From Candidatus Latescibacterota bacterium (lineage in GTDB: Bacteria > Krumholzibacteriota > Krumholzibacteriia > G020349025), in NCBI GenBank assembly GCA_020349025.1, contig CP070763.1, forward strand, positions 3,248,225 to 3,312,224: a DNA stretch of 64,000 nucleotides, written 5' to 3'. This document shows positions 4,830 through 25,621 of this stretch, one piece after another. The position numbers and the translations under genes are program-made. Numbering within the stretch: position 1 is the stretch's first letter; every line of letters begins with the position of its first letter. Below the pieces are notes generated by a model. It was not told where the DNA came from and searched no databases. It saw only the letters and a list, made by a program, of their open reading frames with translations.

Positions 4830-4855
4830 CAGACTGCGTCGATGGAGCGATACGC

Positions 4856-6142: not shown

Positions 6143-6296
6143 GCGCAGGCGAATGGCCCGCTCGAGAGCGCGGCATCCACGCGCCCATCCTTGACGTCGC
6201 CTGAACCCGCTGTCAGAGTCCTTCTCCAGGTTCTCACATCGTTCTTGCAGGCAACGGCGGCGCGGCCGCCTTGCCCGACGCGAGGAGAATGCAGGA

Positions 6297-8063: not shown

Positions 8064-8088
8064 CTCGGACTGCGTCGAATCGGGCCGT

Positions 8089-10056: not shown

Positions 10057-10213
10057 GATGAGCCTTCCAGACCAGCGCGGCGACGCGACGATTCGCGACC
10101 GGTCGAAACGGGACGGCCGCCGGTGGCTTCATCGAGGGCGTTGAATGTAGCACATCCAGACGCGGCCCCCAGCGGGCGGCGGGGGGCGCGGCCCAGGCGA
10201 TTCTCTCGAGCGC

Positions 10214-10243
10214 TTGACACGTCTGGGCGAGCCGTCGCATACT
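10214..10243 (+). promoter_or_regulatory. Promoter of the plus-strand glucan operon
   Basis: TTGACA (10214-10219), 18 bp spacer, CATACT (10238-10243, 4 of 6 matches). The operator-like site at 10245 begins one base after the -10, so a bound repressor would cover the transcription start. The first gene begins 101 nt downstream. Confidence 0.6.
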
Positions 10244-10244
10244 T

Positions 10245-10267
10245 TGATCGCGGATCGAACAAAGTCC
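10245..10267 (+). promoter_or_regulatory. Operator-like site, copy 1
   Basis: A 23-bp site matching 19 of 23 bases of the site at 23975-23997 (minus strand). The shared 12-mer is CGAACAAAGTCC. The left part is TGATCGC-GGA-TCGAACA, a degenerate inverted repeat (5 of 7 arm positions). It sits immediately downstream of the -10 element. The likely regulator is the ROK protein encoded at 11758, but this is inferred only from co-location. Confidence 0.65.
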
Positions 10268-10344
10268 TCTCGTCCGACGCGCACCTTATATTCTTATGGT
10301 TGGGCGGCCCGCCTGCCCCCGCAATCATCGCCCGGAGGCGCGCA

Positions 10345-11718
10345 ATGACCCGGACTCAGACCATTCAAACTGGGGCCGTTGTGACCCTGGCGTTCAGTGT
10401 CGTGGTCGGCTGCGAGAGGGACACGACCGGTCTAGAGCCGGCGCCCGGCAACACGGATCCGATCGTCTTCACGGACGACTTCGGGGATGCGGTGGACTAC
10501 CAGGCCTTCCTGGGCTCGAACCTGGAGGCCGTGTCCGTCGATCCAACCAGAAAGTACCAGGGCTTCGCCTCGCTGAAGATCAGTGTGCCCGACCCGGGCG
10601 ATCCCGAGGGTGGCTGGGCCGGCGGCGCCTTCACCACACGCTTTGCGCGCGAGCTGTCCGGCTACAACGCTCTGACCTTCTGGGCGCGATCGAGCATCGC
10701 CTCGACGCTCGACATCGCGGGGTTCGGGAACGACAACACCGGTTTCTCCAAGTACGAGGCGAGCTGGAGCAACATCCCGCTCACCGATGAGGAGTGGACG
10801 AAGTACGTCATTCCCATTCCCCTCCCGGAAAAGCTGGCCGCCGAGCGCGGTCTCTTCTTCCTCGCCGAGGGACCGGAAGGGAGCACGGGGCACGACGTCT
10901 GGTTCGACGACGTCATGTTCGAGACCGTCGCGACGATCTCAGACCCGCGTCCCGCCATGGCCTCGAAGACCATCAACACGTTCGCGGGCGCGACGATCGA
11001 GATCGAGGGCACCCAGGTCGTCTTCAACGTGGATGGCACCGACCAGGTCATCCAACACCTCCCCGGATACTTCGACTTCGAGTCCTCGAACGAGTCGGTC
11101 GCCACGGTCGTGGATGGGAAGATCCGGGTGCTTGATGCTGGCGTCGCAACCATCAAAGCCAAGCTCGATACACTGGACGCTCTGGGCGGTGTGACCGTGT
11201 TTGCCGTCGCTCCCCCACCGACCGCCCCCACGCCACCGACGCTTCCCGCTGCCGACGTGATCTCTCTCTTCAGCAACGCCTACCGCAACGTCACGGTCGA
11301 CACCTGGTCCGCCGACTGGGACGTCGCCGACGTCACCGACTTTCAGATCGCGGGCGACGACGTGAAGGCGTACTCCAACTTCCAGTTCGCAGGCATCGAG
11401 TTCGCGTCGCAAACGATCGACGCCACGGAGATGACTCACTTCCACATCGATGTGTGGGTGCCGGACGACGGCACGGTCTTCCGAGTCAAGCTCGTCGACT
11501 TCGGCGCCAACGGTGTCTTCGGCGGGGGCGACGATAGCGAGCACGAGATTGCGTTCACAGCGAGTTCGACGCCGCCGCTCGCCAACGAGACCTGGATTGC
11601 GCTCGACATTCCGCTCGCCGACTTCACGAGGCTCATGAGCCGCGAACACCTCGCCCAGCTCATTCTCTCCGGCAACCCGAGCAAGGTGTACGTGGACAAC
11701 ATCTACTTCCACAAGTGA
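10345..11718 (+). CDS. Glycan-binding surface lipoprotein
   Basis: A protein of 457 aa. ATG 10345 has GGAGG 6 nt upstream. A lipoprotein signal peptide ends at 'VVVGC', with Cys at residue 23. Three modules follow. Residues ~35-200 form a beta-sandwich like carbohydrate-binding modules ('GYNALTFWARSS', 'WFDDVMFE'). Residues ~205-290 are a bacterial Ig-like (Big_2) unit ending 'VATIKAKLD'. Residues ~300-457 are a module common in marine glycoside hydrolases, starting 'AADVISLFSNAY' and ending 'SKVYVDNIYFHK', with 'GGGDDSEHEI' inside. It contains no catalytic domain. First gene of the glucan operon, so its probable role is capturing beta-glucan at the cell surface, comparable in job but not in sequence to SusE/SusF. 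Confidence 0.8.
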   Translation: MTRTQTIQTGAVVTLAFSVVVGCERDTTGLEPAPGNTDPIVFTDDFGDAVDYQAFLGSNLEAVSVDPTRKYQGFASLKISVPDPGDPEGGWAGGAFTTRFARELSGYNALTFWARSSIASTLDIAGFGNDNTGFSKYEASWSNIPLTDEEWTKYVIPIPLPEKLAAERGLFFLAEGPEGSTGHDVWFDDVMFETVATISDPRPAMASKTINTFAGATIEIEGTQVVFNVDGTDQVIQHLPGYFDFESSNESVATVVDGKIRVLDAGVATIKAKLDTLDALGGVTVFAVAPPPTAPTPPTLPAADVISLFSNAYRNVTVDTWSADWDVADVTDFQIAGDDVKAYSNFQFAGIEFASQTIDATEMTHFHIDVWVPDDGTVFRVKLVDFGANGVFGGGDDSEHEIAFTASSTPPLANETWIALDIPLADFTRLMSREHLAQLILSGNPSKVYVDNIYFHK

Positions 11719-11757
11719 CGCTTCGCGTGGAGCGGCAGGGTGGCGGGAGTCCCCGAG

Positions 11758-13011
11758 ATGACGAACGAGACCTTTGCGAACATTGACAGCGGGCGTGGCG
11801 ACGGTGCGCGCCCTCGCCCTCTCGCCGAAACCGTGCTCCGGCTGATCTGGCGCGAGAGCGAAATCTCGCGCGCCGAGATCGCCCGAAGCCATGGGATCGC
11901 GCGCTCCACGGTTTCCGAGATCGTCGGGACGCTCCTGCCGACGGGACTCGTTGCCGAGGTGGGCGTCGGGCCTTCGGGCGGTGGACGGCGTCCCATCGTC
12001 CTGCAGTTCCAGGATCACGCGTGCGTCATTCTCGGAGTGGAGATCGGTGCAACGCACCTGGCGGTTGCGCTCACCGATCTGCGCGGTCGCGTGCTCGCCT
12101 GGGAGCATCGCAACCACGCCGTGCGCTCCGACCCGGACGGAACGCGCGCGCTCCTCGTCGAGCTTTGCGACGCGTGCCTGGCGACCCGGCCTCACGGGGC
12201 GCAGCCGTTGATCGGAATCGGCGTCGCGTTCCCGAGCCCCGTCGACCCACACCACCCCGACCAGGTCTCCGACCTCGTTCTGCCGGCGTGGCAGGGTCGA
12301 ACCGGGCTCGAGATCTTGCGCCAGCGGTACGGCGCTCCGCTCATGCTGGACAACGATGCCAACCTCGGTGCGCTCGCGGAGGGATGGTGGGGCGCCGGTC
12401 GCGGCGTCGACGACTTCGCCTACGTCAAGGTTGCAACGGGTGTCGGCTCGGGCCACGTCATCGGAGGCAAGATCTACCGCGGCGCAACCGGCGTTGCAGG
12501 CGAGATCGGACATCTCGCCATCGACCCGCACGGCGGCCCCTGTGTGTGTGGCCTGCGCGGATGCCTCGCGACGCTGGTCGGCGCGCCCGCGCTCGTGGCG
12601 CGCGCCCTCGCGCTGCGCTCCGAGTATCCGCAGAGCGTCCTGGCGCGGGCTGAGCCGAGTATCGAATCGATCGAGGATGCGGCGCTCGCGGGCGACGCGC
12701 TCGCTTTGCAGATCGCGCGCGAGGCAGCAGAGAACCTGGGGATCGCCGTCGCCGGCATGCTCAACTTGATGAATCCCGCCCTGGTGATTCTGGGTGGAGG
12801 CCTTGCGCGCCTCGGGGATGTGCTCCTGGAGCCGCTGCGCGAGACCGTGCGCCGACGCACACTGGTCAGCTCCGTCGCCGTCTCCGAGATCAGGACGAGC
12901 GAGCTCGGCCCGCAGTCGATCGCCGTGGGTGCCGCGACTCTGATCCTCCAGGCCGCCCTCGCCGACTCCAGCCTGTTCCATTCGGCACTCTCCAGCGTGG
13001 AGGCCCCATGA
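11758..13011 (+). CDS. ROK-family transcriptional regulator
   Basis: A protein of 417 aa. An N-terminal winged helix (about residues 25-85, 'SRAEIARSHGIARSTVSEIV') is followed by a ROK sugar-kinase-fold domain. That domain has 'LGVEIGATHLAVAL', an 'LDNDANLGALAE' segment, and the zinc cluster C-x-C-G-x2-G-C in 'CVCGLRGC'. This is the NagC/XylR-type repressor layout, where a sugar ligand releases DNA. ATG 11758 is preferred because GGGAG lies 8 nt upstream; GTG 11740 is an in-frame alternative. It is the second gene of the glucan operon and its stop overlaps the GH16 start (ATGA). It probably binds the two 23-bp sites at 10245 and 23975, giving autoregulation. Ligand unknown, presumably a beta-glucan breakdown product. 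Confidence 0.9.
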   Translation: MTNETFANIDSGRGDGARPRPLAETVLRLIWRESEISRAEIARSHGIARSTVSEIVGTLLPTGLVAEVGVGPSGGGRRPIVLQFQDHACVILGVEIGATHLAVALTDLRGRVLAWEHRNHAVRSDPDGTRALLVELCDACLATRPHGAQPLIGIGVAFPSPVDPHHPDQVSDLVLPAWQGRTGLEILRQRYGAPLMLDNDANLGALAEGWWGAGRGVDDFAYVKVATGVGSGHVIGGKIYRGATGVAGEIGHLAIDPHGGPCVCGLRGCLATLVGAPALVARALALRSEYPQSVLARAEPSIESIEDAALAGDALALQIAREAAENLGIAVAGMLNLMNPALVILGGGLARLGDVLLEPLRETVRRRTLVSSVAVSEIRTSELGPQSIAVGAATLILQAALADSSLFHSALSSVEAP

Positions 13012-13829
13012 CTGCATCGCTGCCCATGCGCCGCCTCGTCCTCACGCTCGTCACGATCGTCGCCGCCAGCTGTCGAGACACATCGGGCCAGGAGCGGCTG
13101 GAGTGGAAGCTCGTCTGGCAGGACGAGTTCGAGGGACCCGCCGGTCAGTCGCCCGATTCGAACCGCTGGCGCTTCGACATCGGCGAGGACTGGGGCAACG
13201 CCCAGCTCGAGTACGACACCAACCACACCGAGAACGTATCGCTCGACGGCGACGGTCACCTTGCGATCACGGCGCGCCGCGAATCGTACCGCGGGCGCGA
13301 CTACACCTCGGGCCGGATCAACACGCGCGGCTTCTTCGAACAGGCTCGCGGCCGTTTCGAAGCGCGAATCCGTCTGCCCGTGGGACAGGGAATCTGGCCA
13401 GCGTTCTGGCTTCTCGGAGGCAACTTCGGCGAGGTTGGATGGCCTGCATGCGGCGAGATCGACATCATGGAGTACCGCGGCCAGGAGCCGAGCATCGTCC
13501 ATGGTAGCCTCCACGGTCCCGGCTACTTCGGTGGCAGCGCCGTGACGGGCCGCTTCGCTCTCCCCGACGAGGGTTTCAACGAGGACTTCCACATCTTCGG
13601 CGTCGAGTGGGACGCCGATCGCATCACCTGGACGATCGATGAAGTGCCGTACCAGTTCATCGCCCCCCGCGACCTCCCCAGAGGCGGGCGCTGGGTGTTC
13701 GACCACCCCTTCTTCATCATTCTGAACGTCGCGGTGGGCGGGCACTTCGTGGGACCGCCCGACGCGAGCACCTCGTTCCCGCAGACCATGCTCGTCGACT
13801 GGGTCCGCGTGTATCGAGGCGAACCATGA
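13008..13829 (+). CDS. GH16 beta-glucanase (laminarinase-type)
   Basis: A protein of 273 aa. A short signal peptide ends near 'IVAASC' (Cys22), possibly a lipobox although the -3 residue is Ala. The rest is a single GH16 domain. The catalytic ExDxxE motif is GEIDIMEY (Glu150 nucleophile, Asp152, Glu155 acid/base), preceded by 'GIWPAFWLLG' and followed by 'FHIFGVEWDADRITW' and 'VDWVRVY' at the end. The methionine between Asp and Glu is typical of the laminarinase (beta-1,3-glucanase) branch rather than lichenases. The start overlaps the ROK stop and the end overlaps the solute-binding-protein start (ATGA), so it is translationally coupled on both sides. Cleaves beta-1,3-glucan outside the cytoplasm. 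Confidence 0.93.
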   Translation: MTASLPMRRLVLTLVTIVAASCRDTSGQERLEWKLVWQDEFEGPAGQSPDSNRWRFDIGEDWGNAQLEYDTNHTENVSLDGDGHLAITARRESYRGRDYTSGRINTRGFFEQARGRFEARIRLPVGQGIWPAFWLLGGNFGEVGWPACGEIDIMEYRGQEPSIVHGSLHGPGYFGGSAVTGRFALPDEGFNEDFHIFGVEWDADRITWTIDEVPYQFIAPRDLPRGGRWVFDHPFFIILNVAVGGHFVGPPDASTSFPQTMLVDWVRVYRGEP

Positions 13830-15496
13830 GCGCTCGCGCCAGCCCCCGGTTTGCCGCTCTGCTTGCCGTGCCGCTGTTGGCGCTCTCCATCTCGGCGTGC
13901 GTTCGCGAGCGCCCGCGCGCCCCCCACGGGGTCCTGGTGGTGTCGCAAGAGCAGCAGGCCGCGTGGGTCCGCAACTTCAACCCGCTCAACGTCGCTGCCG
14001 ATCCTCGCTGGCCCACGCTCGCCGGCGTGTACGAGCCTCTGTTCGTCTTCAACAGCATCCAAGCCGAGTACGTCCCCTGGCTGGGCCTCGAGCACGAATG
14101 GCGTGAAGAGAATCTCCTGCTCCGGGTGACGACGCGCAACGGCGTGCGCTGGTCGGACGGCCAGCCTTTCAGCGCCCGCGACGTGGCCTTCACCTTCCAG
14201 CTTCTGCGACGTCATCGGGCTCTCGACCGCCGCGGCGTCTGGGGTTTCCTCGCCGACGTCGATGCCGTCGACGATCGCACCGTCGACTTCCGCTTCCAGC
14301 GCGTCTTCATCCCCGGCTTCGACGAGGTGGCGGCACAACAGATCGTTCCCGAGCACGTGTGGAGCAAGCTGGCCGATCCGGTCGCGTTTGCCAACGAGAA
14401 CCCGGTCGCCACCGGCCCCTTCACCGAAGTGCGCGTGTTCCGCAATCAGGTGTACGAGCTAGGCCGCAACCCCCACTACTGGCAGGAGGGCCTGCCACGC
14501 GTGGAGGCACTGCGTTTCCCCGCGATTCCGTCGAACGATCGCGCCAACCTGGCGCTGGTGTTCGACGAGGTCGATTGGGCCGGGAACTTCATTCCCGCGG
14601 TCGACCGCGTCTTCGTCGAGCGCGAGCCCCAGCATCATGGCTATTGGTTCCCGCTCACCGGCAGCAGCATCTTCCTCTACGCCAATACCGCCCGCGCCCC
14701 CTTCGGCGATGCTCGGGTTCGCAAGGCGCTCAGCATGGCGATCGATCGGGAGCTCGTGGTCGACGTGGCGTTGTATCGATACTCCCGTCCCGCGGATGCG
14801 ACGGGGCTCAGTGACGCCTATGGCGCCTGGCACAATGCCCAGATCGGTGCGAGCGACTGGGTGCAGCACGACCTCGAGCGCGCCAACGCGCTCCTCGACG
14901 AGGCGGGGCATGCGCGCGGCGAAGATGGCGTGCGCCGCCTGCCGGATGGCACACGCTGGCGCTACGACATTCTCACCGTCTCGGGCTGGTCGGACTGGGT
15001 GCGGGCGTCGCAGGTGATCGCACGAGGGTTCCGCGCGCTCGGCATCGAGGCCTCGGTCCGGACCTTCGATTTCAGCGCCTGGTTCCAGCGCGTGCAGGAG
15101 GGAGCCTTCGACTTGAGCCTCGGCTGGTCGTTCGAAGGGCCGACGCCGTACCTGTTCTACCGTTGGCTCATGTCTTCGGCGACGGTCAAGCCGATCGGGG
15201 AAGCGTCGACCGGGAACTGGCACCGCTACGGCAGCGCCGCGGCCGATTCCGCCCTGGTCGCATTCGAGCGCGAGGCGGATCCGGAGGCACAGCGGGCACT
15301 GAGCGACGCGCTGCAGCGTCTCTTCGCGCAGGAGGCCCCCGCGATCCCGCTCTATCCGAACCCGTCCTGGGCGGAGTACAACACGAGCCGCTTCGAAGGT
15401 TTCCCCTCGGCAACGCATCCGTACGCCGATCCTTCGCCCAACAAGTTCGATCGAGGCGAGACGCTCCTGGTTCTCACGAGGCTCAAACCGCGATAG
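13826..15496 (+). CDS. ABC transporter solute-binding lipoprotein, oligosaccharide/peptide (SBP family 5)
   Basis: A protein of 556 aa with a lipoprotein signal peptide ('LLALSISAC', Cys about 25). It belongs to the large DppA/OppA-type family 5 binding proteins. Hallmarks are 'NPLNVAADPRWPTLAGVYEP' near the N-terminus, 'RNGVRWSDGQPFSARDVAFT' (about residues 103-122) and 'VRKALSMAIDRELVVDV'. Members of this family transport peptides but also cello- and laminari-oligosaccharides. The glucan gene context points to beta-gluco-oligosaccharides. It overlaps the GH16 gene by 4 nt and is followed 9 nt later by the first permease. Confidence 0.92.
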   Translation: MSARASPRFAALLAVPLLALSISACVRERPRAPHGVLVVSQEQQAAWVRNFNPLNVAADPRWPTLAGVYEPLFVFNSIQAEYVPWLGLEHEWREENLLLRVTTRNGVRWSDGQPFSARDVAFTFQLLRRHRALDRRGVWGFLADVDAVDDRTVDFRFQRVFIPGFDEVAAQQIVPEHVWSKLADPVAFANENPVATGPFTEVRVFRNQVYELGRNPHYWQEGLPRVEALRFPAIPSNDRANLALVFDEVDWAGNFIPAVDRVFVEREPQHHGYWFPLTGSSIFLYANTARAPFGDARVRKALSMAIDRELVVDVALYRYSRPADATGLSDAYGAWHNAQIGASDWVQHDLERANALLDEAGHARGEDGVRRLPDGTRWRYDILTVSGWSDWVRASQVIARGFRALGIEASVRTFDFSAWFQRVQEGAFDLSLGWSFEGPTPYLFYRWLMSSATVKPIGEASTGNWHRYGSAAADSALVAFEREADPEAQRALSDALQRLFAQEAPAIPLYPNPSWAEYNTSRFEGFPSATHPYADPSPNKFDRGETLLVLTRLKPR

Positions 15497-15505
15497 GAGG
15501 CCAGG

Positions 15506-16486
15506 TTGCGCTTCGTTCTGCGTCGACTCGGTTTCTATCTCGTCGCGGCGTGGGCAGCGCTGACGCTGAACTTCTTTCTGCCGCGACTCATGCCGGGGGA
15601 TCCCGCCTCGGCCTTGTTCGCGCGCTTCGCAGGCCGGGTGAGTCCGGAGGCGCTGCAAGCGCTGCGTGAGACCTTCGGACTCACCGATGCATCGATCTTC
15701 AGCCAGTACGTCACCTACCTGCGTCACGTTCTCACCGGCGAGTTCGGCATCTCGGTGGCGTACTTTCCGACTCCGGTCTCGACCGTGATCGGCACCGGTC
15801 TGTTCTGGACCATCTTCCTGGCGGGGAGCGCGGTGCTGGTGAGCTTCACGCTGGGCACGCTCCTGGGCATCCTTGCAGCGTGGCGGCGCCGTGGCTGGGT
15901 GGACACGTGGCTGCCTTCGACCTTCGTGTTCCTGGGGGCCTTCCCCTACTTCTGGCTCGCCATGGTGGCGCTCTACGTCTTCGGCTTCCTGCTGGGTTGG
16001 TTTCCACTCGGGCACGCCTACGGGGACGACCTTGCGCCCGGATTCAACCTCACCTTCCTGACCGACGTCGCCCGCCATGCGGCGTTGCCGATCGCGACGG
16101 TGGTGATCGCGACGCTCGGCGGGTGGCTGCTCACGATGCGCAACACGATGATCGGCGTGCTCGGTTCCGACTACGTCAACCTGGCGCGCGCCAAGGGGCT
16201 CACGCCCTCGCGCGTCGTGCTGCGCTACGCCGCGCGCAATGCCTTGCTTCCGAGCGTCACCGGCTTCGGCATGGCGCTCGGCTACGTTCTCGGCGGCTCG
16301 CTCCTGACCGAGATCGTCTTCTCCTATCCCGGCCAGGGGTACCTGCTCGTGCAGGCGGTTCGCAATCAGGACTATCCGCTCATGCAGGGGATCTTTCTCG
16401 TCATCACGTTGGCGGTCCTCGGCGCCAACTGGCTCGTGGATCTCGTCTACGTGTGGCTCGATCCGCGCACCCGGGAGGCGTCGTGA
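15506..16486 (+). CDS. ABC transporter permease, Dpp/Opp type, first subunit
   Basis: A protein of 326 aa starting at TTG 15506 with a perfect AGGAGG at 15495-15500. Six membrane helices; the N-terminal 'LRRLGFYLVAAWAALTLNFF' leads into 'LMPGDPASALF', the DppB signature. The cytoplasmic EAA loop is visible as 'YVNLARAKGLTPSRVVLRYA'. It pairs with the next gene, whose GTG overlaps this stop codon (GTGA). Forms the inner-membrane channel with the second permease and the two ATPases at 17417 and 23952. Confidence 0.94.
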   Translation: MRFVLRRLGFYLVAAWAALTLNFFLPRLMPGDPASALFARFAGRVSPEALQALRETFGLTDASIFSQYVTYLRHVLTGEFGISVAYFPTPVSTVIGTGLFWTIFLAGSAVLVSFTLGTLLGILAAWRRRGWVDTWLPSTFVFLGAFPYFWLAMVALYVFGFLLGWFPLGHAYGDDLAPGFNLTFLTDVARHAALPIATVVIATLGGWLLTMRNTMIGVLGSDYVNLARAKGLTPSRVVLRYAARNALLPSVTGFGMALGYVLGGSLLTEIVFSYPGQGYLLVQAVRNQDYPLMQGIFLVITLAVLGANWLVDLVYVWLDPRTREAS

Positions 16487-17424
16487 GCTCCACCCCGAGC
16501 ACGGCAGTCACCGGTTTCGCCGCCTGGTGGCAGGCCATTCGTCGTGACCGCAAGGCCACGATCGGTGCCATCATTCTCGCTGTCTTCCTTCTCGTCGCTG
16601 GCGTCGGACCGTGGCTCGTCGGCGACCCGGACGCGCTCGTGGGGATTCCGCTGCAACCGCCGTCGACGTCGCACTGGCTCGGCACGACCGGCCAGGGGCA
16701 GGACGTCCTGGCGCAGCTCGTGGCGGGAACGCGCGTGTCGCTCGCGATCGGCTTCGGCGTGGGGCTGACGGTCGTGCTGGTCGGAGCTCTCGTCGGCGTC
16801 ACCGCCGGTTACCTGGGCGGCCGCGTCGATGCGCTGCTGTCGCTGCTCTTCAACGTCTTCCTGGTCATTCCGGGGCTGCCGCTCGCCATCGTCATCGCCG
16901 CCTACCTTCCCTCCGGACCGCTGACCTTGGGCTTCGTGCTGGTGGTGACCGGTTGGGCCTGGAATGCGCGTGTCGTGCGCGCACAGACGTTGGCGCAACG
17001 CAAACGCGACTTCGTGGCGGCAGCGGTCGTCGCCGGCGAGTCGAGCTTCCGTATCGTGACGCGCGAGATCCTCCCGACGATGACCTCGCTCCTCCTGGCG
17101 CAGGTCATCGGCAGCACGGTCTACGCCATCGGCGCGCAGGTGGGGCTCGAGTTCCTGGGCCTGGGCGACGTGTCGACCATCACCTGGGGGACCAACCTCT
17201 ACTGGGCGCAGAACGACTCGGCGCTTCTCACCGGAGCCTGGTGGACCTTCGCACCCACAGGGTTGTGCGTGGCACTGGTGGGATTCGGCCTCACCATGTT
17301 GAACTCCGGCTTCGACGAGATCACCAATCCGCGGCTCCAGCTGGAGCGCGCCTGGCGCGCGCACCTGCGGCTGCGAGGAGAGGAGCCGACGCGCTCGACC
17401 CCGGTGGTGATGGACGTTGGATGA
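16483..17424 (+). CDS. ABC transporter permease, Dpp/Opp type, second subunit
   Basis: A protein of 313 aa. GTG 16483 overlaps the upstream stop. DppC-like: N-terminal helix 'KATIGAIILAVFLLVAGVG', then the conserved 'HWLGTTGQGQDVLAQLVAGT' segment seen in oligopeptide permease C subunits ('H.lGTD..GrDvlsrl.yG'). The EAA loop is 'DFVAAAVVAGESSFRIVTRE' followed by 'ILPTM'. It closes with a long cytoplasmic tail. The next ATPase gene begins 8 nt before the stop. Confidence 0.94.
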   Translation: MSSTPSTAVTGFAAWWQAIRRDRKATIGAIILAVFLLVAGVGPWLVGDPDALVGIPLQPPSTSHWLGTTGQGQDVLAQLVAGTRVSLAIGFGVGLTVVLVGALVGVTAGYLGGRVDALLSLLFNVFLVIPGLPLAIVIAAYLPSGPLTLGFVLVVTGWAWNARVVRAQTLAQRKRDFVAAAVVAGESSFRIVTREILPTMTSLLLAQVIGSTVYAIGAQVGLEFLGLGDVSTITWGTNLYWAQNDSALLTGAWWTFAPTGLCVALVGFGLTMLNSGFDEITNPRLQLERAWRAHLRLRGEEPTRSTPVVMDVG

Positions 17425-18376
17425 GCCGCTGCTCTCGATTCGCGACCTCTGTGTCGACTACGTCTCCGAAGCGGGGTGCGTGCGCGCCGTCGACCATGTG
17501 ACGCTCGATGTGAGCCGCGCTGAGATCGTCGGGGTTGCTGGCGAGTCGGGGAGCGGCAAGAGCACGCTGGCACAGGCGCTCCTGCGCATCCTGCCGCCGC
17601 CAGCAATCATTTCAGGAGGCGAGGCGCGCTTCGAGGGACGGGACATTCTCACGCTTTCGGAGACGGAGCTGCGCGAGCTGCGTTGGCGGCGCATCTCCAT
17701 GGTGTTCCAGAGCGCCATGGACTCGCTCAACCCGGTGATCAGCATTGGCGAGCAGATCGTCGACACGCTTGTCGCCCATGGCGCCGCAACGCGCCAGGAA
17801 GCGCGATCGCGCGCCGCCGAGCTTCTCGAAATGGTCGGCATTCCGGCGCCGCGCGTGGACGCCTACGCGCACCAGCTTTCGGGCGGCATGCGCCAGCGCG
17901 TGGGCATTGCGCTGGCGTTGGCGTTGGAGCCCGCACTCGTGATTCTCGATGAGCCGACCACAGCGCTCGACGTCATCGTCGAGCGCGAGATCCTGCAGCA
18001 GATCCGGGGGTTGCAGGAGAAGCTCGGCTTTGCCGTTTTGTTCATCACGCACGACCTCGCACGCATGCTGCAGTTCTCCGATCGCGTCGCCGTCTTCTAC
18101 GCCGCCCAGCTCGTCGAGCTGGCACCGGCGGCGGAGCTGAGACGCGCTCCGCGGCATCCGTACACCGAGGGGCTGTTGCGCGCCTTCCCATCGGTGCAGA
18201 GCGACGCCGATGAGCCCGAGAGCATCCCGGGCGCGCCCCCCAGTCTCCTCAGCCCGCCTGCCGCGTGCCGCTTCCACCCGCGCTGCGATCGCGTCCAGGC
18301 GATCTGCCGCGAGCGCCAACCGGACCTGATCCAGCTCGGCCCACGCCGCGCTGCCGCCTGCCACCTGGCAGAGTAG
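17417..18376 (+). CDS. ABC transporter ATP-binding protein, DppD type
   Basis: A protein of 319 aa. The start is TTG 17417, which overlaps the permease; no ATG or GTG in this frame fits better. Walker A GESGSGKS (about 38-45), signature LSGGMRQRVGIA (about 150-161), Walker B LVILDEPTTALDV (about 169-181). The C-terminal oligopeptide-transporter extension carries the typical Cys-rich stretch 'CRFHPRCDRVQAIC'. Last gene of the plus-strand operon. Its partner ATPase is encoded at the head of the convergent minus-strand operon (23952). Only 7 nt separate this stop from the stop of the gene on the other strand. Confidence 0.93.
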   Translation: MDEPLLSIRDLCVDYVSEAGCVRAVDHVTLDVSRAEIVGVAGESGSGKSTLAQALLRILPPPAIISGGEARFEGRDILTLSETELRELRWRRISMVFQSAMDSLNPVISIGEQIVDTLVAHGAATRQEARSRAAELLEMVGIPAPRVDAYAHQLSGGMRQRVGIALALALEPALVILDEPTTALDVIVEREILQQIRGLQEKLGFAVLFITHDLARMLQFSDRVAVFYAAQLVELAPAAELRRAPRHPYTEGLLRAFPSVQSDADEPESIPGAPPSLLSPPAACRFHPRCDRVQAICRERQPDLIQLGPRRAAACHLAE

Positions 18377-18383
18377 GCATGAC

Positions 18384-21300
18384 CTACAAGGAAATGTGCA
18401 GGTAGGTGCGAAACTCCCATTCGCTCCCGTTCGGCCCCGGGACGCTCGGATCACACAGCAACGTGGTCGGGTCGGGTTCCCCGGCCGGACAGTAGCGGGG
18501 CGAGAAGCGATCGAGCGAGCGCCAGGTCCCGCGCACTCCGATGCGCGTCTGCGGGAAGCCGAACCAGCGCGGCCTGCCGAGCGTGTACGACAGGTCTCCC
18601 ATGAGCTGGACCGGAAACGTCAGGTTGAAGTCGCGATGGTAGTCGTACGGTCCCCAGTCGTTGAACTTGGCGTGGGCGGCGAAGGCCACCGAGCTCCAGG
18701 CGAGCCGGGCATCGCCACCGAAGCGGTTGATGCGTCGCGGGTCCTCGCCGTTCGGCTCACCCGTGCCGGTGTAGAAGTGTCCGATCAGACGGCGACCGTT
18801 GCGCAGTGAGGAGACCACGCGCACGCGCGCTTCCCACAGGTCGCGTGGCGGAGGCGCGCCCGGGAACGGGAAGGCGGTACCGTCGGCGAGGAATCCGATG
18901 GCGGCGTCTTGGGTCGTTGGAAAGTGGCGGAAGGTGAAACCGATGCTTGCCGCGACCGGCGCGTCCTCGCGCGTATCGTTGTCCCAGGCCCACATCCACG
19001 TCGCGGGCGTGGGATCGTAGTTCAGGAGAATCTCCGCACCCATCATCTCGCGGTTGGCGCGCACAGCGAAGGGATCGTCGATCACGTTGCGCGGCCGCCC
19101 CGGTGGTGGAACGTCGCCGGGAATCGGCCCCACGAGCGGCTTCTGCCACAGGACGTTGGGCGCGAATTGGAACTTGCCCTGGTTGAGAGCCAGACCGGAC
19201 ATCAGATTGACACCGTTGCCGAGACCCGTGTCCTTGAGGGTCCAGCCGGTGAAGGTGATCGTCGACGTAGGACCACCATCCGCAACGATCCCGGCATAGG
19301 CTCCCTGCGCGTACCAGTGGAAGCGACCGCGCTCGAGCGTCAGCTTCGCCTTGGCGCCGAACGTATCGGTGTCGCGCACGCGGTCGAGAAGGATGTCGTA
19401 GCCATCTTCCGTCTCCTCGGTGATCTGGAACGTCTGCCCGATCTTGCTCTCACCGGCCCAGATGCCGCCCACCTCGAGACGAGCCCCACCCTGGCCGAGG
19501 CCCACATGGAGCGTCGCCCTCTTGGTGCGGGGGACCGGGATCACGGACGAGGTCGCCGCCGTCGTCCTCTGCGCGAACTCATCCTGGTAGATGCCTGTGG
19601 CATCGAAGGGGCCGAAGCGACGCCGATACTTCACGATGTACTGCGGGTTGGCTCCCCAGTACAGCTCCGGGCCAAAGGCGAGCTTCAATCCGTCGAGCCA
19701 CTTCTTGCCACTCAGCTCCACGCCCAGCGACCCGTCGGCGTTGTAGATGTCGATGTTCTCGCCGTAGTAGGCGTCGCGATACAGGCCGAAGAAATCCCCT
19801 TCGTAGCCCCAGTGCGTGTGGCCTTCACGGTAGAAACCGTCCAGCCGGAACCAGCGATCGTCCCACGAAACGGTGGAGCGGTACACCTTCACTCGTTCGA
19901 GCCCCTGGAGTTGAAGTGGGCGGTCGCCATCCACCACGATCGTCTCTACGATGCCGCGGTTCTCGTAGAAGATCTCGTCGATCGGGTTGAGCGGCACATG
20001 GCCGAGAATGTTGAGCGACAGCGTGCCGGTCACGTTGTCGCTGGGCTTCACCTCGAAGTCGGCGAAGAAGGACTGCAGATGGTCGAAGCCCAGGAATGAC
20101 GGAAGCACCGTGCGTGGCGCTTCTGCAGGGGGCGTGCTGATGCGCGTGCCGCCGGTGTAGAAGGTCTCGAACTCGAGCCGCAGACCCGACACGCGCACGC
20201 GCGCCAGGGCGCCGGCGACGTCGGAGGCGCGATCGGCCCGCGCTTCGAGCGCCGCGAGCGCCGGCTCGATCGCTGCAAAGTGAGCCTGAATCGCGGCGAC
20301 GTCCGTGCCGGGAGCGTACGGGGCCAGCTTCCACGCCTGCCGCAACGCGTAGTACGCTGCTCGCGGATAGAGCTCGTAGAAGCCGTAGTGGTCGGGGCGG
20401 CCTTTGGCGCAGATCCCCCACCACTCCTCGTTCATGTTGTTGTCGCCCTCGACGTAGTCTTCCGGATAGGCGGCGTTGGGCCACGAAGCGTTGGTATCGT
20501 GAATGTCGAGCCGACTCTCCTGGCCGAACTTCCACCAGCCGTCGACCCACTGGAAGACGAAGCCGCCGATGGCGTTGCCCACGCGACCCTTGCCGCTCGA
20601 TTGCTCGTAGATTTCCCGCCATTGACCAATCAGGTAGCGCGCCTGCGTCGTCTGGTCCTCGCGCATCTCCTTGGCGTTGAAGGCATCCGCTCCGAACTCC
20701 GTGTACATGACGGGGACGCCGAGCGTGTCGCGCACCCGCTGGTAGAGATCGCGCGCCGAAATGCCCCGATACACGTTCGTTCCGAGCACGTCGAGCGAGC
20801 GGCACTCCTGCGCAATGATCTCGAGGTACTGCAGATCGCCGTTGGCGATCGCCACGGGGCGGCCGCGATCGCGTGTCTTGATCGCGGCCGTGACCTCTTC
20901 GAAGAGGCTGTAGAGGTGACGCGCACGCGCTGCGTCGCGCTCACCCTCCGGAAGCGCCTCGATCTCGAAGGAGCTCCACGTGAGCCCGTAGTTGTTCTCG
21001 TTGCCGAGGAGCCACATCAGAACACCGGGCGTGCCACGGAATTGGTCCACGACCCCGACGATTTCCGCCTTGACCGCTTCACGCAGGCGGGGGTTTGAGT
21101 AGTCGACCGACGGGATCCACACTCCATCGAGCGTGTAGCCGTAACGCGCCATGGGATGATTGACGACCGTGTAGATGCCGTAGCGCTCGTAGATGTGCTG
21201 GACCCAGCGCGGAGTGATGCCGACGTAGACGCGGATGGCGTTGACCCCCATGCCCTTGAGAAGCGGCATCTCGCGCGCGAGCACGGCTTCGATGAAGTCG

Positions 21301-21554
21301 TCCGGCTGCTTCCACAGATCGTAGAGATAGTTCTCTCCGATCGGGAAGTAGTCCCAGTTCATGCCGAAGACCATGAAGTCCTCTCCATCCACCTGCAGCC
21401 TCGAGCCCAACGCGTCTGACACGACGCGGACGCTGGGCGGAGCTGCTGCGTCGACCTGCGCCGAGGCGGCCGATCCGCACGTCCACACGGCGGTCGCAGC
21501 GCAGGCAGCCCACAAACCGCGACGGGAGCGGCTTCCTGTTCGGATCCAGCTCAA
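18384..21554 (-). CDS. Clan GH-A glycoside hydrolase fused to an outer-membrane beta-barrel-like domain
   Basis: A protein of 1056 aa. I start it at TTG 21554: AAGGAGG lies 5 nt upstream, and a Sec signal peptide with cleavage near 'GSAASAQ' (29-33) follows. The reading frame stays open upstream but overlaps the GH1 gene. Residues ~40-410 form a TIM barrel like GH2 catalytic or GH5/GH72-type domains. 'NAIRVYVG' lies at beta-3, N185-E186 (GNEN) at the acid/base position and E286 (YTEFG) at the nucleophile position. Residues ~420-500 are helical linker. From about 510 to the end the sequence is rich in alternating aromatic/polar strands with Gly/Asp turns, e.g. 'GAKAKLTLERGRFHWYAQGA', ending 'TYLHISL', as in porin-like outer-membrane barrels. 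The start overlaps the GH1 stop (TTGA). Probable role: cleaving glucan at the outer membrane and admitting products. Confidence 0.78.
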   Translation of the reverse strand: MSWIRTGSRSRRGLWAACAATAVWTCGSAASAQVDAAAPPSVRVVSDALGSRLQVDGEDFMVFGMNWDYFPIGENYLYDLWKQPDDFIEAVLAREMPLLKGMGVNAIRVYVGITPRWVQHIYERYGIYTVVNHPMARYGYTLDGVWIPSVDYSNPRLREAVKAEIVGVVDQFRGTPGVLMWLLGNENNYGLTWSSFEIEALPEGERDAARARHLYSLFEEVTAAIKTRDRGRPVAIANGDLQYLEIIAQECRSLDVLGTNVYRGISARDLYQRVRDTLGVPVMYTEFGADAFNAKEMREDQTTQARYLIGQWREIYEQSSGKGRVGNAIGGFVFQWVDGWWKFGQESRLDIHDTNASWPNAAYPEDYVEGDNNMNEEWWGICAKGRPDHYGFYELYPRAAYYALRQAWKLAPYAPGTDVAAIQAHFAAIEPALAALEARADRASDVAGALARVRVSGLRLEFETFYTGGTRISTPPAEAPRTVLPSFLGFDHLQSFFADFEVKPSDNVTGTLSLNILGHVPLNPIDEIFYENRGIVETIVVDGDRPLQLQGLERVKVYRSTVSWDDRWFRLDGFYREGHTHWGYEGDFFGLYRDAYYGENIDIYNADGSLGVELSGKKWLDGLKLAFGPELYWGANPQYIVKYRRRFGPFDATGIYQDEFAQRTTAATSSVIPVPRTKRATLHVGLGQGGARLEVGGIWAGESKIGQTFQITEETEDGYDILLDRVRDTDTFGAKAKLTLERGRFHWYAQGAYAGIVADGGPTSTITFTGWTLKDTGLGNGVNLMSGLALNQGKFQFAPNVLWQKPLVGPIPGDVPPPGRPRNVIDDPFAVRANREMMGAEILLNYDPTPATWMWAWDNDTREDAPVAASIGFTFRHFPTTQDAAIGFLADGTAFPFPGAPPPRDLWEARVRVVSSLRNGRRLIGHFYTGTGEPNGEDPRRINRFGGDARLAWSSVAFAAHAKFNDWGPYDYHRDFNLTFPVQLMGDLSYTLGRPRWFGFPQTRIGVRGTWRSLDRFSPRYCPAGEPDPTTLLCDPSVPGPNGSEWEFRTYLHISL

Positions 21555-22948
21555 CGGAGCCTCCTTACGGTGGTGCTGCGCGCGTCGCCGTCCATCCCGC
21601 TCGCAGCGACGACGTCGCGGTACCAGAATGCACTCTGCTTGGCGATCCGCCGTTGCGTGGCGAAGTCGACCCAGTAGAGGCCAAAGCGTTTGGTGTAGCC
21701 ATGCGCCCATTCGAAGTTGTCGAGGAGCGACCAGACGAAGTAGCCCTGAAGCGGCACGCCCGCGCTGATGGCTCGGTGCGCCGCTGCGAGGTGAGCGTGC
21801 AGGTAATCGATGCGACGCACGTCGCTGATCTCTCCGGAGGTGTCGATTTCGTCGCGGAAGGCGGCGCCGTTCTCGGTGATGTAGATCTTGGCGGGCCGGT
21901 ACTCGCGCTCGAGGCGCACGAGAAGTTCGTAGAGCCCCTGCGGGAAGACCTCCCAACCCATTTCGGTGAGCTCCTCTTGCGGAACGACGCGCTCGACCAC
22001 AGGCTCGCCATCCGCGCCGGCACGCACGACGACGCGGCTGTAGTAATTGACGCCGAGGAAATCGAGTGGTGTCGCGATGGCCTGCAGATCGCCGGCGCGC
22101 ACGAACGGCAGATCGTGCCCTTCGAGATCGCCGCGTCGGACGCGATCGGCGACCGCATCCTCCGGATAGGAGCCGCGGAAGAGAGGATCGAGGTACCAGC
22201 GATTGAAGGAGCCGTCGAAGTGCCGCGCCGCATCGCGGTCCGCCTCGCGTGGCGAAGCGGGCCAGGCGGGCGCCAGGTTGAGTGTGATGCCGACCTCGGC
22301 GTCGGTAGCGGTGGCGTCGGCGCGCAGCGCCTCGACAGCCCACGCGTGTGACAAGAGAAGATGGTGCGCGGCACGCAACGCCTCACCGGCGTCACGGTGC
22401 CCGGGCGCGTGCTCCCCCATCTCGTGCCCGAGGCTGGCGGCACACCACGGCTCGTTGTGCGTGATCCAATGGCCGACGCGATCACCCAGCCGCCGGGCGA
22501 CCGCAGTCGCATAGTCGGCAAAGGCGGTCGCCGTGTCGCGCGTGCTCCACCCGCCTCGGTCCTGGAGCGGCTGCGGCAGGTCCCAGTGATAGAGCGTCAC
22601 GAACGGGCGGATGCCGTTGTCGAGGAGCGCGTCGACGAGCGCATCGTAGAAGTCGAGTCCGGTGTCGCTCACGCGACCGCGCCCCGCCGGCATGATGCGG
22701 GGCCAGGCAACCGAGAAACGATAGGCGCCGACACCGAGCCACTGCAGCAGGTCGACGTCCTCGCGCCAGCGGTGGTAGTGGTCACACGCGACGCTTGCGT
22801 CGGAGCCATCGGAGATGCGTCCGGGTGTCGCGGCGAAGCGATCCCAGATCGATTCGCCACGCCCGTTTTCTGCGAAGCCTCCCTCGATCTGGTGCGCCGA
22901 GGTCGCGGTGCCCCAGAGAAACCCACGCGGGAAGGTGTGTCTCGACAT
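21551..22948 (-). CDS. GH1 beta-glucosidase
   Basis: A protein of 465 aa, the usual length for bacterial GH1. It starts 'FPRGFLWGTATSAHQIEG', the family N-terminal signature. The acid/base Glu166 lies in THNEPW and the nucleophile Glu359 in YITENG; aglycone and glycone residues 'HWDLP' and 'WSLLDNFEWAHGY' are present. No signal peptide, so cytoplasmic: it would hydrolyse imported beta-gluco-oligosaccharides to glucose. It begins 2 nt after the stop of the ATPase gene, and its TGA overlaps the TTG start of the barrel-fusion gene, so the three minus-strand genes form a tight operon. Confidence 0.96.
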   Translation of the reverse strand: MSRHTFPRGFLWGTATSAHQIEGGFAENGRGESIWDRFAATPGRISDGSDASVACDHYHRWREDVDLLQWLGVGAYRFSVAWPRIMPAGRGRVSDTGLDFYDALVDALLDNGIRPFVTLYHWDLPQPLQDRGGWSTRDTATAFADYATAVARRLGDRVGHWITHNEPWCAASLGHEMGEHAPGHRDAGEALRAAHHLLLSHAWAVEALRADATATDAEVGITLNLAPAWPASPREADRDAARHFDGSFNRWYLDPLFRGSYPEDAVADRVRRGDLEGHDLPFVRAGDLQAIATPLDFLGVNYYSRVVVRAGADGEPVVERVVPQEELTEMGWEVFPQGLYELLVRLEREYRPAKIYITENGAAFRDEIDTSGEISDVRRIDYLHAHLAAAHRAISAGVPLQGYFVWSLLDNFEWAHGYTKRFGLYWVDFATQRRIAKQSAFWYRDVVAASGMDGDARSTTVRRLR

Positions 22949-22950
22949 GC

Positions 22951-23952
22951 TCAGCTCCCGAGCTCTCCAGGGCCCTGCGGGTAGAGGTGGCAGCGGACGC
23001 GGCGACCGTCGACGAGACGCGGCGCCGGATCGGTCGTGGCGCATGCGTCGAGAACATCGGGGCAGCGAGCGGCAAACGGACAACCTTGAGTCGCTTCGCC
23101 GCCGGCGGGGGCGGGCCGGGTCTCGCTTGGCTGCACCTCTCGCGCGTCGGCGATGGCTGCCACGAGAGCGCGTGTGTACGGGTGCGCCGGAGCGCCGACC
23201 ACCGCAGCGCTCCTGCCCTCCTCGACGATGCGTCCGCGAAAAAGGACCAGAATCCGCTCGGCCAGATAACGCGCCGACGCGAGGTCGTGCGTGATGAGGA
23301 GAATCGCGAGCTTGCGCTCGCGTTTCAGTTGCACGAGGAGCTTCAAGATTCCCATGCGAATCGAGACGTCGAGCATCGAGGTCGGCTCGTCGGCCACGAG
23401 CACATCCGGATCGACAGCGAGTGCCCGAGCGATCGCCACGCGTTGCCGTTGCCCGCCCGAAAGCTCGTAGGGACGCCGGTCCACGAACTCCGCGGCCGGC
23501 TCGAGACCGACCGTCTGCAAAAGCGCCAGCGCCCGGCGTCTGACCTCGGCGGAGTCGGCCCGACCGTGGCGCAGGAGCGGCCGGATCAAGTGGTAGCCGA
23601 CAGTGTGGGCCGGATTGAGAGAACCGAACGGGTCCTGGAACACCATCTGGACGCGCCTGCGGTAGCCGAGCGACGCGCGACGTGGCTCGCGCGCCAGGAC
23701 ATCCTCGCCGTCCAGACGGATCGCGCCCGAATCGGGGGCCTCGAGCCGCAACAGAAGCCTGGCCACGGTGCTCTTGCCGCTCCCCGATTCCCCCACGAGG
23801 GCGACCGCCTCCCCCCGATCGATCTGGAACGACACGTCCCGGGCCGCCACGACGCTTCCCGCCTTGGCGAGTAAGCCGCTGGAGGAAAAAGACTTGTGGA
23901 TCCCAGAGAGCTCGAGAAGAGAAACGCGCGAGGATTTGACGTCGGCCTGCAC
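22951..23952 (-). CDS. ABC transporter ATP-binding protein, DppF type
   Basis: A protein of 333 aa starting at GTG 23952 with GGCGGAG about 6 nt upstream. Walker A GESGSGKST (about 54-62), signature LSGGQRQRVAIA, Walker B VLVADEPTSMLDV, and the Cys-containing oligopeptide C-terminal extension 'GCPFAARCPDVLDAC'. Together with the DppD-type ATPase at 17417 it would make the heterodimeric motor of the transporter at 13826-17424. First gene of the minus-strand operon; its promoter and operator lie just upstream (23975-24025). Confidence 0.93.
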   Translation of the reverse strand: MQADVKSSRVSLLELSGIHKSFSSSGLLAKAGSVVAARDVSFQIDRGEAVALVGESGSGKSTVARLLLRLEAPDSGAIRLDGEDVLAREPRRASLGYRRRVQMVFQDPFGSLNPAHTVGYHLIRPLLRHGRADSAEVRRRALALLQTVGLEPAAEFVDRRPYELSGGQRQRVAIARALAVDPDVLVADEPTSMLDVSIRMGILKLLVQLKRERKLAILLITHDLASARYLAERILVLFRGRIVEEGRSAAVVGAPAHPYTRALVAAIADAREVQPSETRPAPAGGEATQGCPFAARCPDVLDACATTDPAPRLVDGRRVRCHLYPQGPGELGS

Positions 23953-23974
23953 GAAGGACTCCGCCGTGTGGAAA

Positions 23975-23997
23975 GGACTTTGTTCGCCCAGCGAACA
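23975..23997 (-). promoter_or_regulatory. Operator-like site, copy 2, with perfect palindrome
   Basis: Contains a perfect 7-bp inverted repeat with 3-nt spacer, TGTTCGC-CCA-GCGAACA (23981-23997), plus a conserved flank so that the full 23 bp match copy 1 at 10245 in 19 positions. Located directly downstream of the minus-strand -10 element, the usual place for a repressor site. The preserved palindrome makes this the stronger copy. Confidence 0.7.
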
Positions 23998-23998
23998 T

Positions 23999-24025
23999 AG
24001 TGTATGATACGGGCAGGCCTGTCAA
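23999..24025 (-). promoter_or_regulatory. Promoter of the minus-strand glucan operon
   Basis: On the minus strand TTGACA (24025-24020) is followed after 15 bp by TACACT (24004-23999, 4 of 6). The spacer is short, so the exact -10 is uncertain. The operator-like palindrome begins 1-2 bases downstream. Confidence 0.5.
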
Positions 24026-24205
24026 GGCGCTGCCGGCGCCGCAAAGCGTCGGCAGCCCCAGAGCAAACATCCGATCTGCCCGGCGGCTGCGCAAGGGGCG
24101 CGACGCAGGGCGAGCCTTGCTACCCGGTTCCAACAAACCACATGGCGTCGACGTTGCGAGAGACCCCTCATGCTTGAAGAGGTAGTTCGCCGCGCGAGGA
24201 GGGTC

Positions 24206-25621
24206 ATGATGAAGCGCCTTCTCTCTGGTATCTCTCTCGGACTGGTGTTGGTCGCCGCTTCGGCCATCGGCTTCCAGTCGTTTGCTGCAACAAACTTGCT
24301 GACGAACCCCGGCTTCGAGGATGGAGGCGGCTCCTACAACGGTTGGACCACATTCGGAAGCGGTCCACAGATCTCCGATGCCAGCACGGACAACATCTTT
24401 CGCTCGGGGGCGGCTGCCGCGAAGATCTTCGGCGAGTTCACGGACTGTCCGGACAACCCGCAGTTCGACGACGGCGGTTTCCTGCAGAGTTTCACGCCGA
24501 CGCCAGGAATGATCTACGAGCTGAGCGGTTACGCCTACGTGTCGAGCGCGGATCCGATTCCCGGCACCGACGCGTGCGCGGGCAATCGTCTGATTGCGAA
24601 GATCGCGTTCTTCAACGCCGGCGGCTTCGAGGTTGCCGTCAACGAGGTCGTCATCGGCGATTGGAGCACTCCGCTCGACGAGTGGAACGCGTTCAGCGTG
24701 TCGCTCCCAGCCCCGGCAAACGCCCAGAGCGTCGAGGCGCTCTTCCTCTTCCTGCAGCCGGGCTGCGACACGGGTGCCGTGTTCGTGGACGACACCTTCT
24801 TCTGCGAGCTGACTCCGACATCGGAGCCGAATCTCCTGGCCAACCCGAGCTTCGATTCGGGCCTGAGCGGCTGGACCACCTTCGGCAACGTGTTGTCCGA
24901 CACCCGGACTTTCGCCTATCGCACGCCGCCGGGCGGCGCCAAGCTGTTCGGCCCCTTCGCGAACCCGGGCGATGCCTCCGGGATGTTCCAATCCTTCACG
25001 GCCGCGCCGGGGTCGGTTTGGCGACTCGACGTGTTCGCGATGCACACGTGCCTCGGGAACCCGCCCGACCGCACGCAGGGTGACAACTTCGCCCTCGCCC
25101 GCATCGTCTTCCGTGACGCGACAAACGCCGAGATCCCCGGTGACGACGTGTTGATCGTGGACGACAGGGCACCTTTGGGTCGCTGGACCGAGTACGGCGT
25201 CATCGCTACCGCTCCGACCGGCACGGTCGTCGCCGAGGCGTTCATTCTCTACATTCAGCCTGATTCGACCGAGGGCGGGGCGGTGCTCATCGACGACGTC
25301 GGCTTCCGGCAGCTGGACGCGACGGACGTCGCGCTCGCGCCTGCCGCACTCGACCTGCGACAGAACGTGCCGAACCCCTTCAACCCGGCGACTCGAATCG
25401 ACTTCGTGCTGGCGCAGCGCGAGGCCGTGGACATCAGCGTGTACGACGTCGCGGGTCGACGCATCGCGACGCTCTTGCAGGCGGAGCTCGATCCCGGGCC
25501 GCATCACGTGATCTGGAACGGCAGGATGGCGAACGGAATGGCGGCGGCGGCCGGCACCTATCGCTACGTCTTGAGAACATCGACGGCTCGGTTGTCGAGA
25601 AGCATGGTCCTGCTCAAATGA
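24206..25621 (+). CDS. Secreted protein with two glycan-binding-like modules and FlgD-like C-terminal domain
   Basis: A protein of 471 aa. ATG 24206 (followed by a second ATG) has GAGGAGGG just upstream; a Sec signal peptide ends near 'SFAATN'. Two homologous beta-sandwich modules follow. The first (about 30-205) begins 'NLLTNPGFEDGG' and the second (about 212-385) 'NLLANPSFDSG'; both share 'GWTTFG'. They are like CBM4/CBM6-type modules. Residues ~390-471 form the FlgD-like sorting module that begins 'LRQNVPNPFNPATRIDF' and contains 'YDVAGRR', ending in 'SMVLLK'. There is no catalytic domain. The TGA overlaps the ATG of the GH17 gene, so it is probably co-expressed with it and serves in binding extracellular glucan. 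Confidence 0.82.
   Translation: MMKRLLSGISLGLVLVAASAIGFQSFAATNLLTNPGFEDGGGSYNGWTTFGSGPQISDASTDNIFRSGAAAAKIFGEFTDCPDNPQFDDGGFLQSFTPTPGMIYELSGYAYVSSADPIPGTDACAGNRLIAKIAFFNAGGFEVAVNEVVIGDWSTPLDEWNAFSVSLPAPANAQSVEALFLFLQPGCDTGAVFVDDTFFCELTPTSEPNLLANPSFDSGLSGWTTFGNVLSDTRTFAYRTPPGGAKLFGPFANPGDASGMFQSFTAAPGSVWRLDVFAMHTCLGNPPDRTQGDNFALARIVFRDATNAEIPGDDVLIVDDRAPLGRWTEYGVIATAPTGTVVAEAFILYIQPDSTEGGAVLIDDVGFRQLDATDVALAPAALDLRQNVPNPFNPATRIDFVLAQREAVDISVYDVAGRRIATLLQAELDPGPHHVIWNGRMANGMAAAAGTYRYVLRTSTARLSRSMVLLK

Follow-up and report, generated by a model that had tools for sequence, protein, structure and literature searches.

The window analysed here, a 64,000-nucleotide stretch of contig CP070763.1 of a Candidatus Latescibacterota bacterium, contains two convergent operons for glucan use and, at the outer promoter of each, one copy of an inverted repeat that we call operator A (left) and operator B (right). 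These two palindromes very probably serve as binding sites for the ROK-family repressor encoded inside the cluster. As judged from the sequence and its conservation, it is highly likely that this protein is an autoregulated, local repressor of a β-1,3-glucan (laminarin-type) locus, which would act through both dyads and be released from them by a sugar. The left operon would be read rightwards as cbmA-rok-gh16-sbp-permB-permC-oppD and the right operon leftwards as oppF-gh1-TIM-barrel glycoside hydrolase (GH) gene; a further operon, encoding a GH149 β-1,3-glucan phosphorylase, diverges from the right one. The locus has what defines a local ROK sugar regulon, namely an inverted-repeat operator at linked sugar-gene promoters that is conserved together with the regulator. 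The switch is of an ordinary, known kind, here in an uncultivated bacterial lineage, for which it provides a concrete, testable set of repressor, operator and regulon for β-1,3-glucan use. A limited search of the open-access literature, with Eisenbacteria as the only taxon name tried, found no earlier description of this switch.

Two copies of a 25-bp dyad in the genome

The conserved unit, derived from 34 sites of other genomes, is a 25-bp dyad of 10-5-10 layout, ACTTTGTTCG-N5-CGAACAAAGT. Operator A lies at 10241-10265 on the + strand and reads ACTTTGATCG-CGGAT-CGAACAAAGT, while operator B lies at 23977-24001 on the − strand and reads ACTATGTTCG-CTGGG-CGAACAAAGT; each departs by one mismatch from the 20 fixed positions of the dyad. 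Pattern count, matrix and profile agree on both sites, and class-mates of the window genome keep an equivalent site before cbmA (operator A) or before gh1 (operator B). When the whole genome (3,836,508 bases) was scanned with up to three mismatches allowed, the dyad was found at operators A and B only, and a backwards control gave no match. Likewise, a profile of the 34 sites run against the genome up to E = 10, in which 150 of 1201 first-look candidates were scored, returned these two places and no other. With a matrix derived from 45 sites in other genomes, operator B scored 30.98 and 26.24 on the two strands and operator A 25.95 and 25.79, the next best place in the window reaching 3.50.

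A preliminary description of this DNA had proposed a pair of 23-bp sites, at 10245-10267 (+) and 23975-23997 (−), identical at 19 of 23 positions when read in the same orientation, the second carrying the perfect palindrome TGTTCGC-CCA-GCGAACA. Re-reading of the letters bore out the agreement, the orientation and the palindrome (23981-23997). The sites are thus real, but the conserved element is the 25-bp unit at 10241-10265 and 23977-24001 rather than the 23-bp one. That description had also envisaged many random copies away from sugar genes as an outcome that would speak against it; the genome contains two copies of the dyad. The inner palindrome, with up to two mismatches allowed, has a single place in the genome, and its backwards control likewise has one chance match. 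In mononucleotide shuffles of both upstream regions, the best 23-mer match reached at least 19 positions in 3 of 2000 trials, or about 1 in 700 for the pair taken alone. A chance likeness of two 23-mers was considered and ruled out: the number of dyads in the genome, the scores from the other-genome matrix and the conservation described below all speak against it, and the comparative data make chance untenable for the operator pair.

Conservation and joint absence of rok and the dyad

Twenty-seven class-mates of the window genome have orthologues of its ROK, with 55-70% identity, and the dyad stands at the corresponding promoters. Among class loci with sufficient DNA upstream, 20 of 20 have it ahead of cbmA, in the order cbmA-rok-gh16, and 16 of 16 ahead of the opposing gh1 operon, one of the latter sites being weak; these counts omit the L022 cbmA row, where the gene is cut off by the contig end, as well as stretches lacking the gene or a usable 5′ end. 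Fourteen further loci came from named records (Candidatus Eisenbacteria, Gemmatimonadetes, Bacteroidetes, Ignavibacteria, Myxococcales and others), the names being those given by depositors to metagenome bins. Twelve of these have cbmA, and in nine a clear dyad is found at most 250 bases ahead of it; in L068 and L069 the clear dyad is closer to a divergent GH gene than to cbmA.

Two loci of other composition extend this pattern. In L070 the same ROK (60% identity) has GH149 as a neighbour, together with genes that by eye appear to encode SusC, SusD and a sugar MFS transporter (4626-11287), and three dyads, each with 20 of 20 fixed positions, precede the SusC operon, rok and the MFS gene; here the switch is the same but the uptake system is another. 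In L071, rok-gh16-ABC-gh1-GH form a single row with two dyads upstream.

The association was also assessed across 98 genomes, the window's own included, with a dyad model applied at E up to 0.01. The dyad was found in 29 genomes: in all 28 with a ROK orthologue, versus 1 of the 70 without (G060; Fisher test, 1e-23, uncorrected for relatedness). Thirteen of the 28 rok genomes had supplied class-stretch sites to the model, and the other 15, the window's own included, all matched; some named loci used in the model may belong to the same species as genomes of the set. Both GH16 (E < 1e-90) and GH149 occur in 31 genomes; 27 of these carry rok along with the dyad, and four (G019, G028, G031 and G057) lack both. 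No dyad was seen in the latter four, in whose fetched stretches the matrix scored no higher than 1.6; the direct matrix scan of rok-less genomes covered these stretches and G022. Three of the four keep cbmA and gh16 side by side and have no rok in between (L098, L099 and L100), and the contig fetched from the fourth, G057, carries gh16 and a GH gene only. The promoter regions of those three keep TTGAC-type boxes and lack the dyad. A motif merely travelling with glucan genes was ruled out by these four rok-less genomes, and such genomes, having glucan genes with neither rok nor detectable dyads, amount to a natural experiment linking regulator with operator.

On these sequence comparisons, the factor common to the dyad-bearing loci is the ROK protein. 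The earlier proposal that a single regulator, the ROK encoded inside the locus, serves both outer promoters is strongly supported by the conservation, the co-occurrence, the joint absence and the ROK-GH149-dyad locus L070.

Several observations weigh against this reading. Among the class loci, the weak gh1 site, that of L053, has three mismatches, and among the named loci with cbmA, L066 and L067 have only degenerate dyads before this gene (matrix scores 14.4, 15.6 and 10.6) and no dyad was seen in L065. The 98-genome search was strict, scoring at most 79 candidates per genome and stopping at E 0.01, so that weak sites could be missed; operator A itself, at E 0.0107, falls beyond that stop. 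The genomes are related, and their counts are consequently not independent events. The −10 hexamer at operator B, described below, agrees with TATAAT at only three of six positions. Finally, G060 has a dyad without a ROK orthologue and also without a close GH16, and a set of 20 stretches with further dyads of relatives, chosen by hand from the dyad-search matches, includes five (L078, L085, L086, L090 and L093) without a recognised glucan gene; each of the other 15 matches one of the window's glucan genes (GH1, GH16, GH17-like, GH149, TIM-barrel GH or cbmA).

The last two observations are those that would be expected if the dyads served some other, unlinked transcription factor, such as a global carbon regulator, the ROK being a passenger with a different target. 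The G060 contig (C27, 21628 bases), however, breaks off inside a TIM-barrel GH gene, the match to which continues up to the edge of the fetched stretch, and the rok half of the locus may therefore be merely unassembled. The five dyads away from recognised glucan genes are possibly further regulon members or unrelated sites, and the further stretches as a whole indicate that the relatives have a larger regulon than the window genome. A global regulator was ruled out by the presence of only two sites in the window's own genome, which leaves no room for a global regulon. An unlinked factor of any kind is at odds with the distribution of the dyad over 28 of 28 rok genomes versus 1 of 70 others, with its disappearance where rok is gone from an otherwise retained locus, and with its position ahead of rok in L070, a locus of other composition. 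We consider this alternative improbable and retain the cluster's own ROK as the factor that would bind the dyads.

Two side observations concern the dyads of relatives. In loci L066-L069, a half-degenerate dyad with the left arm ACATTATTTTG or GCATTATTTTG lies in the region that separates cbmA from the divergent TIM-barrel GH gene; L068 and L069 have a second, better dyad there, and L066 a second one of similar score. Genome G078 has two ROK orthologues (L057 and L052; 60% and 62%), with dyads near each.

The ROK protein

The rok gene (11740-13011, +) encodes a ROK-family transcriptional regulator with a C-terminal ROK domain (PF00480, 5.9e-53, residues 98-404). The curated NagC and Mlc models align with it from residue 29-31, and so do the Protein Data Bank (PDB) chains of Lmo0178 and Mlc, which extend from there to the C-terminal part, whereas glucokinase chains align from residue 97 only. 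The alignment with Lmo0178 and Mlc thereby covers the N-terminal region of the winged helix-turn-helix, which is absent in ROK kinases; we take the aligned N-terminal part of Mlc to be this helix-turn-helix. The Pfam scan of the window ROK listed no helix-turn-helix model. The zinc-type motif CxCGxxGC is present in the translation as GEIGHLAIDPHGGPCVCGLRGC, aligned with the same motif in two PDB chains, and presumably has a metal role here as well.

The window ROK thus aligns with Mlc and NagC of Escherichia coli and with Lmo0178 of Listeria, yet it falls far below the NCBIfam cut-offs, with 202.2 of the required 650 bits for NagC and 171.9 of 530 for Mlc, and by these curated cut-offs it is neither Mlc nor NagC. 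The curated model names Mlc a global regulator, in contrast to the local two-site regulon of the window. We also considered whether the inner operator letters of the window (TTCGC...GCGAA, as against TTCGG...CCGAA in most relatives) are tied to its recognition helix, IARSTVSEIV, which reads LSRSTVSEIV in most relatives. L049 has the helix letters of the window without its operator letters, which weighs against such a link.

Position of the dyads within the promoters

The left promoter consists of a −35 box TTGACA (10214-10219, +) and, after an 18-bp spacer, a −10 box CATACT (10238-10243, +), which operator A overlaps. At the right-operon promoter, TTGACA (24020-24025, −) is followed after 17 bp by CACTAT (23997-24002, −), at the second base of which operator B starts. 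The preliminary description had each site begin 1-2 bases after a −10; in fact, the dyads overlap the −10 at both promoters, near the expected start point, a location suited to a repressor.

Both arrangements recur in relatives. TTGACA and a similar −10 stand ahead of the cbmA site in most of them, as read by eye, and the TTGACA-17-CACTAT layout is present at 20 of 24 gh1-type sites (window included) versus 3 of 12 others. TACACT had been an alternative −10 for operator B (15-bp spacer), and was dropped because the layout with CACTAT fits those 20 sites. The 24 and 12 sites of this comparison were hand-picked, with the GATT-type sites described next and the L058 cbmA site left out; L075 and L077, which are fetched copies of the window's own site, were excluded from the counts.

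The GATT-type sites form a third class in relatives, with the left arm ACTTGATTCG, once ACTTGCTTCG (for example L041 1168-1192, L043 1012-1036 and L050 17105-17129, with 11 more). All 14 have TTGATT (once TTGCTT), an 18-bp spacer and then a hexamer that differs from TATAAT at no more than two positions, so that the dyad lies between −35 and −10. In L081 and L091 such dyads precede a protein of about 240 amino acids with a signal-like N-terminus, as read by eye.

These positions bear on how a ROK bound to the dyads would act. It could serve as an activator or a dual regulator, and position by itself is no proof of repression. Mlc and NagC, ROK homologues, nevertheless act by repression. Both window operators overlap the −10, and the place between −35 and −10 occupied by the dyad at 14 of 14 GATT-type sites is the classical one for a repressor. 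BglR, a ROK protein discussed below, is termed a repressor in PMC3750489. Activation or dual action is thus quite improbable, and repression by the cluster's ROK is the mode of action that we favour.

The same overlap with the core promoter might suggest that the element is no operator at all, but a feature of the promoter or 5′ leader, such as an RNA hairpin, alike at the two places because both promoters are strong; transcripts would indeed start within or beside the dyad. The three rok-less relatives with TTGAC boxes, however, lack it. In addition, the offset of the dyad from −35 and −10 varies between site classes, which fits a site on the DNA but not an element fixed in the transcript. 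We regard a leader element as exceedingly improbable and treat the dyad as a protein-binding site.

A model for the glucan switch

In the absence of substrate, a ROK dimer is predicted to bind the 25-bp dyad at the two outer promoters, where, because the operator overlaps the −10, it would exclude RNA polymerase and keep both convergent operons off. When a glucan-derived sugar, glucose or a β-glucobiose, binds the kinase-like ROK domain, the protein would be freed from the DNA, and the importer, GH16 and GH1 would be made together, along with ROK itself, which would make the switch autoregulatory. Of the transporter genes, oppD lies in the left operon and oppF in the right, so that one Opp-type importer seems to be split and to need both promoters.

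By gene content, the closest described system appears to be that of BglR of Thermotoga maritima. This ROK protein belongs to the operon bglREFGKL-TM0026-bglB-lamA, has a validated site and responds to cellobiose and glucose (PMC3750489). As in the window, the regulator is encoded with ABC β-glucoside importers, a β-glucosidase and a laminarinase (PMC3750489); the BglR system is one operon, however, whereas the window has two convergent operons and the adjacent GH149 operon. By analogy with BglR only, the inducer in the window is probably glucose or a β-glucobiose. The operator itself has a counterpart in XylR, a ROK protein of Clostridium acetobutylicum and relatives, for which PMC2873477 gives a 25-bp inverted-repeat operator, ACTTattAAAnnnnnTTTaaAAAgt, confirmed by electrophoretic mobility shift assay. 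It shares with the window dyad the 10-5-10 layout and the ACTT...AAgt ends (PMC2873477), but XylR governs xylose genes, and its inner operator letters are attAAA as against TGTTCG in the window dyad.

Operator B lies within the 217-bp divergent intergenic region between the right operon and the GH149 operon (24170-30160), and it may also govern the latter, as a bidirectional operator. A candidate divergent −10, TATGAT (24003-24008, +), faces the GH149 operon. A hexamer with at most one mismatch to TATAAT stands at this place in 21 of the 24 hand-picked gh1-type sites, the window's included, versus 1 of the 12 others, a count weakened by the orthology of the gh1 sites. We give even chances to a broader reading in which one repressor would serve three operons through two dyads, with operator B acting in both directions and the controlled block reaching to 30160, which would couple hydrolysis and import with GH149 phosphorolysis. 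In the same reading, operator arms in this lineage would double as promoter parts, providing the CACTAT −10 at gh1-type sites and the TTGATT −35 in the third class, with its −10 following after 18 bp. Such double use would explain why each site class has its own fixed departure from a perfect palindrome.

The operator letters permit a hunt for co-regulated glucan genes, including those for proteins of unknown family, across the genomes of the lineage.

Genes of the locus

The left operon opens with cbmA (10345-11718, +), an open reading frame of unknown family, named by us, whose N-terminus is lipoprotein-like by eye and which is conserved beside rok; Pfam and NCBIfam scans gave no match to it. 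After rok follow a GH16 glycoside hydrolase (13008-13829, +; Pfam Glyco_hydro_16, 1.1e-21), probably of the laminarinase type, a family 5 substrate-binding protein of an ATP-binding cassette (ABC) transporter (13826-15496, +; Pfam SBP_bac_5), two ABC permeases (15506-17424, +) and an oppD-type ABC ATPase (17417-18376, +; Pfam ABC_tran and oligo_HPY). The first permease (15506-16486) was recognised by Pfam BPD_transp_1 and the second (16483-17424) by matches in relatives, which have both. The right operon begins with an oppF-type ABC ATPase (22951-23952, −; Pfam ABC_tran and oligo_HPY), continues with a GH1 β-glucosidase (21551-22948, −; TIGR03356, above cut-off) and ends with a protein of 1055 amino acids with a GH2-type TIM barrel (18384-21551, −; Pfam Glyco_hydro_2_C, 5e-7). 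The TIM-barrel match of this last protein is limited to residues 90-295, and the protein is conserved across the group.

The divergent operon to the right of operator B consists of an open reading frame for a CBM/FlgD-type protein (24170-25621, +; Pfam FlgD_ig), one for a GH17-like protein (25618-26676, +), whose GH17 label is our own and for which NCBIfam gave no match, and the gene for the GH149 β-1,3-glucan phosphorylase (26666-30160, +; NF058639, 1549.8 bits, cut-off 1150). GH149 and its neighbours point to β-1,3-glucan as the substrate and indicate that the glucan locus continues beyond 24.0 kb. The 13.7-kb catabolic island that had been described as closed from both sides accordingly does have dyads at both outer promoters, but it is not closed on the right, as glucan genes continue to 30160.

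A second GH16-bearing protein, of 700 amino acids, is encoded at 30153-32255 (−). It has no dyad in the window's own genome, whereas its copies in L089 and L094 do, and the regulon may therefore have shrunk here.

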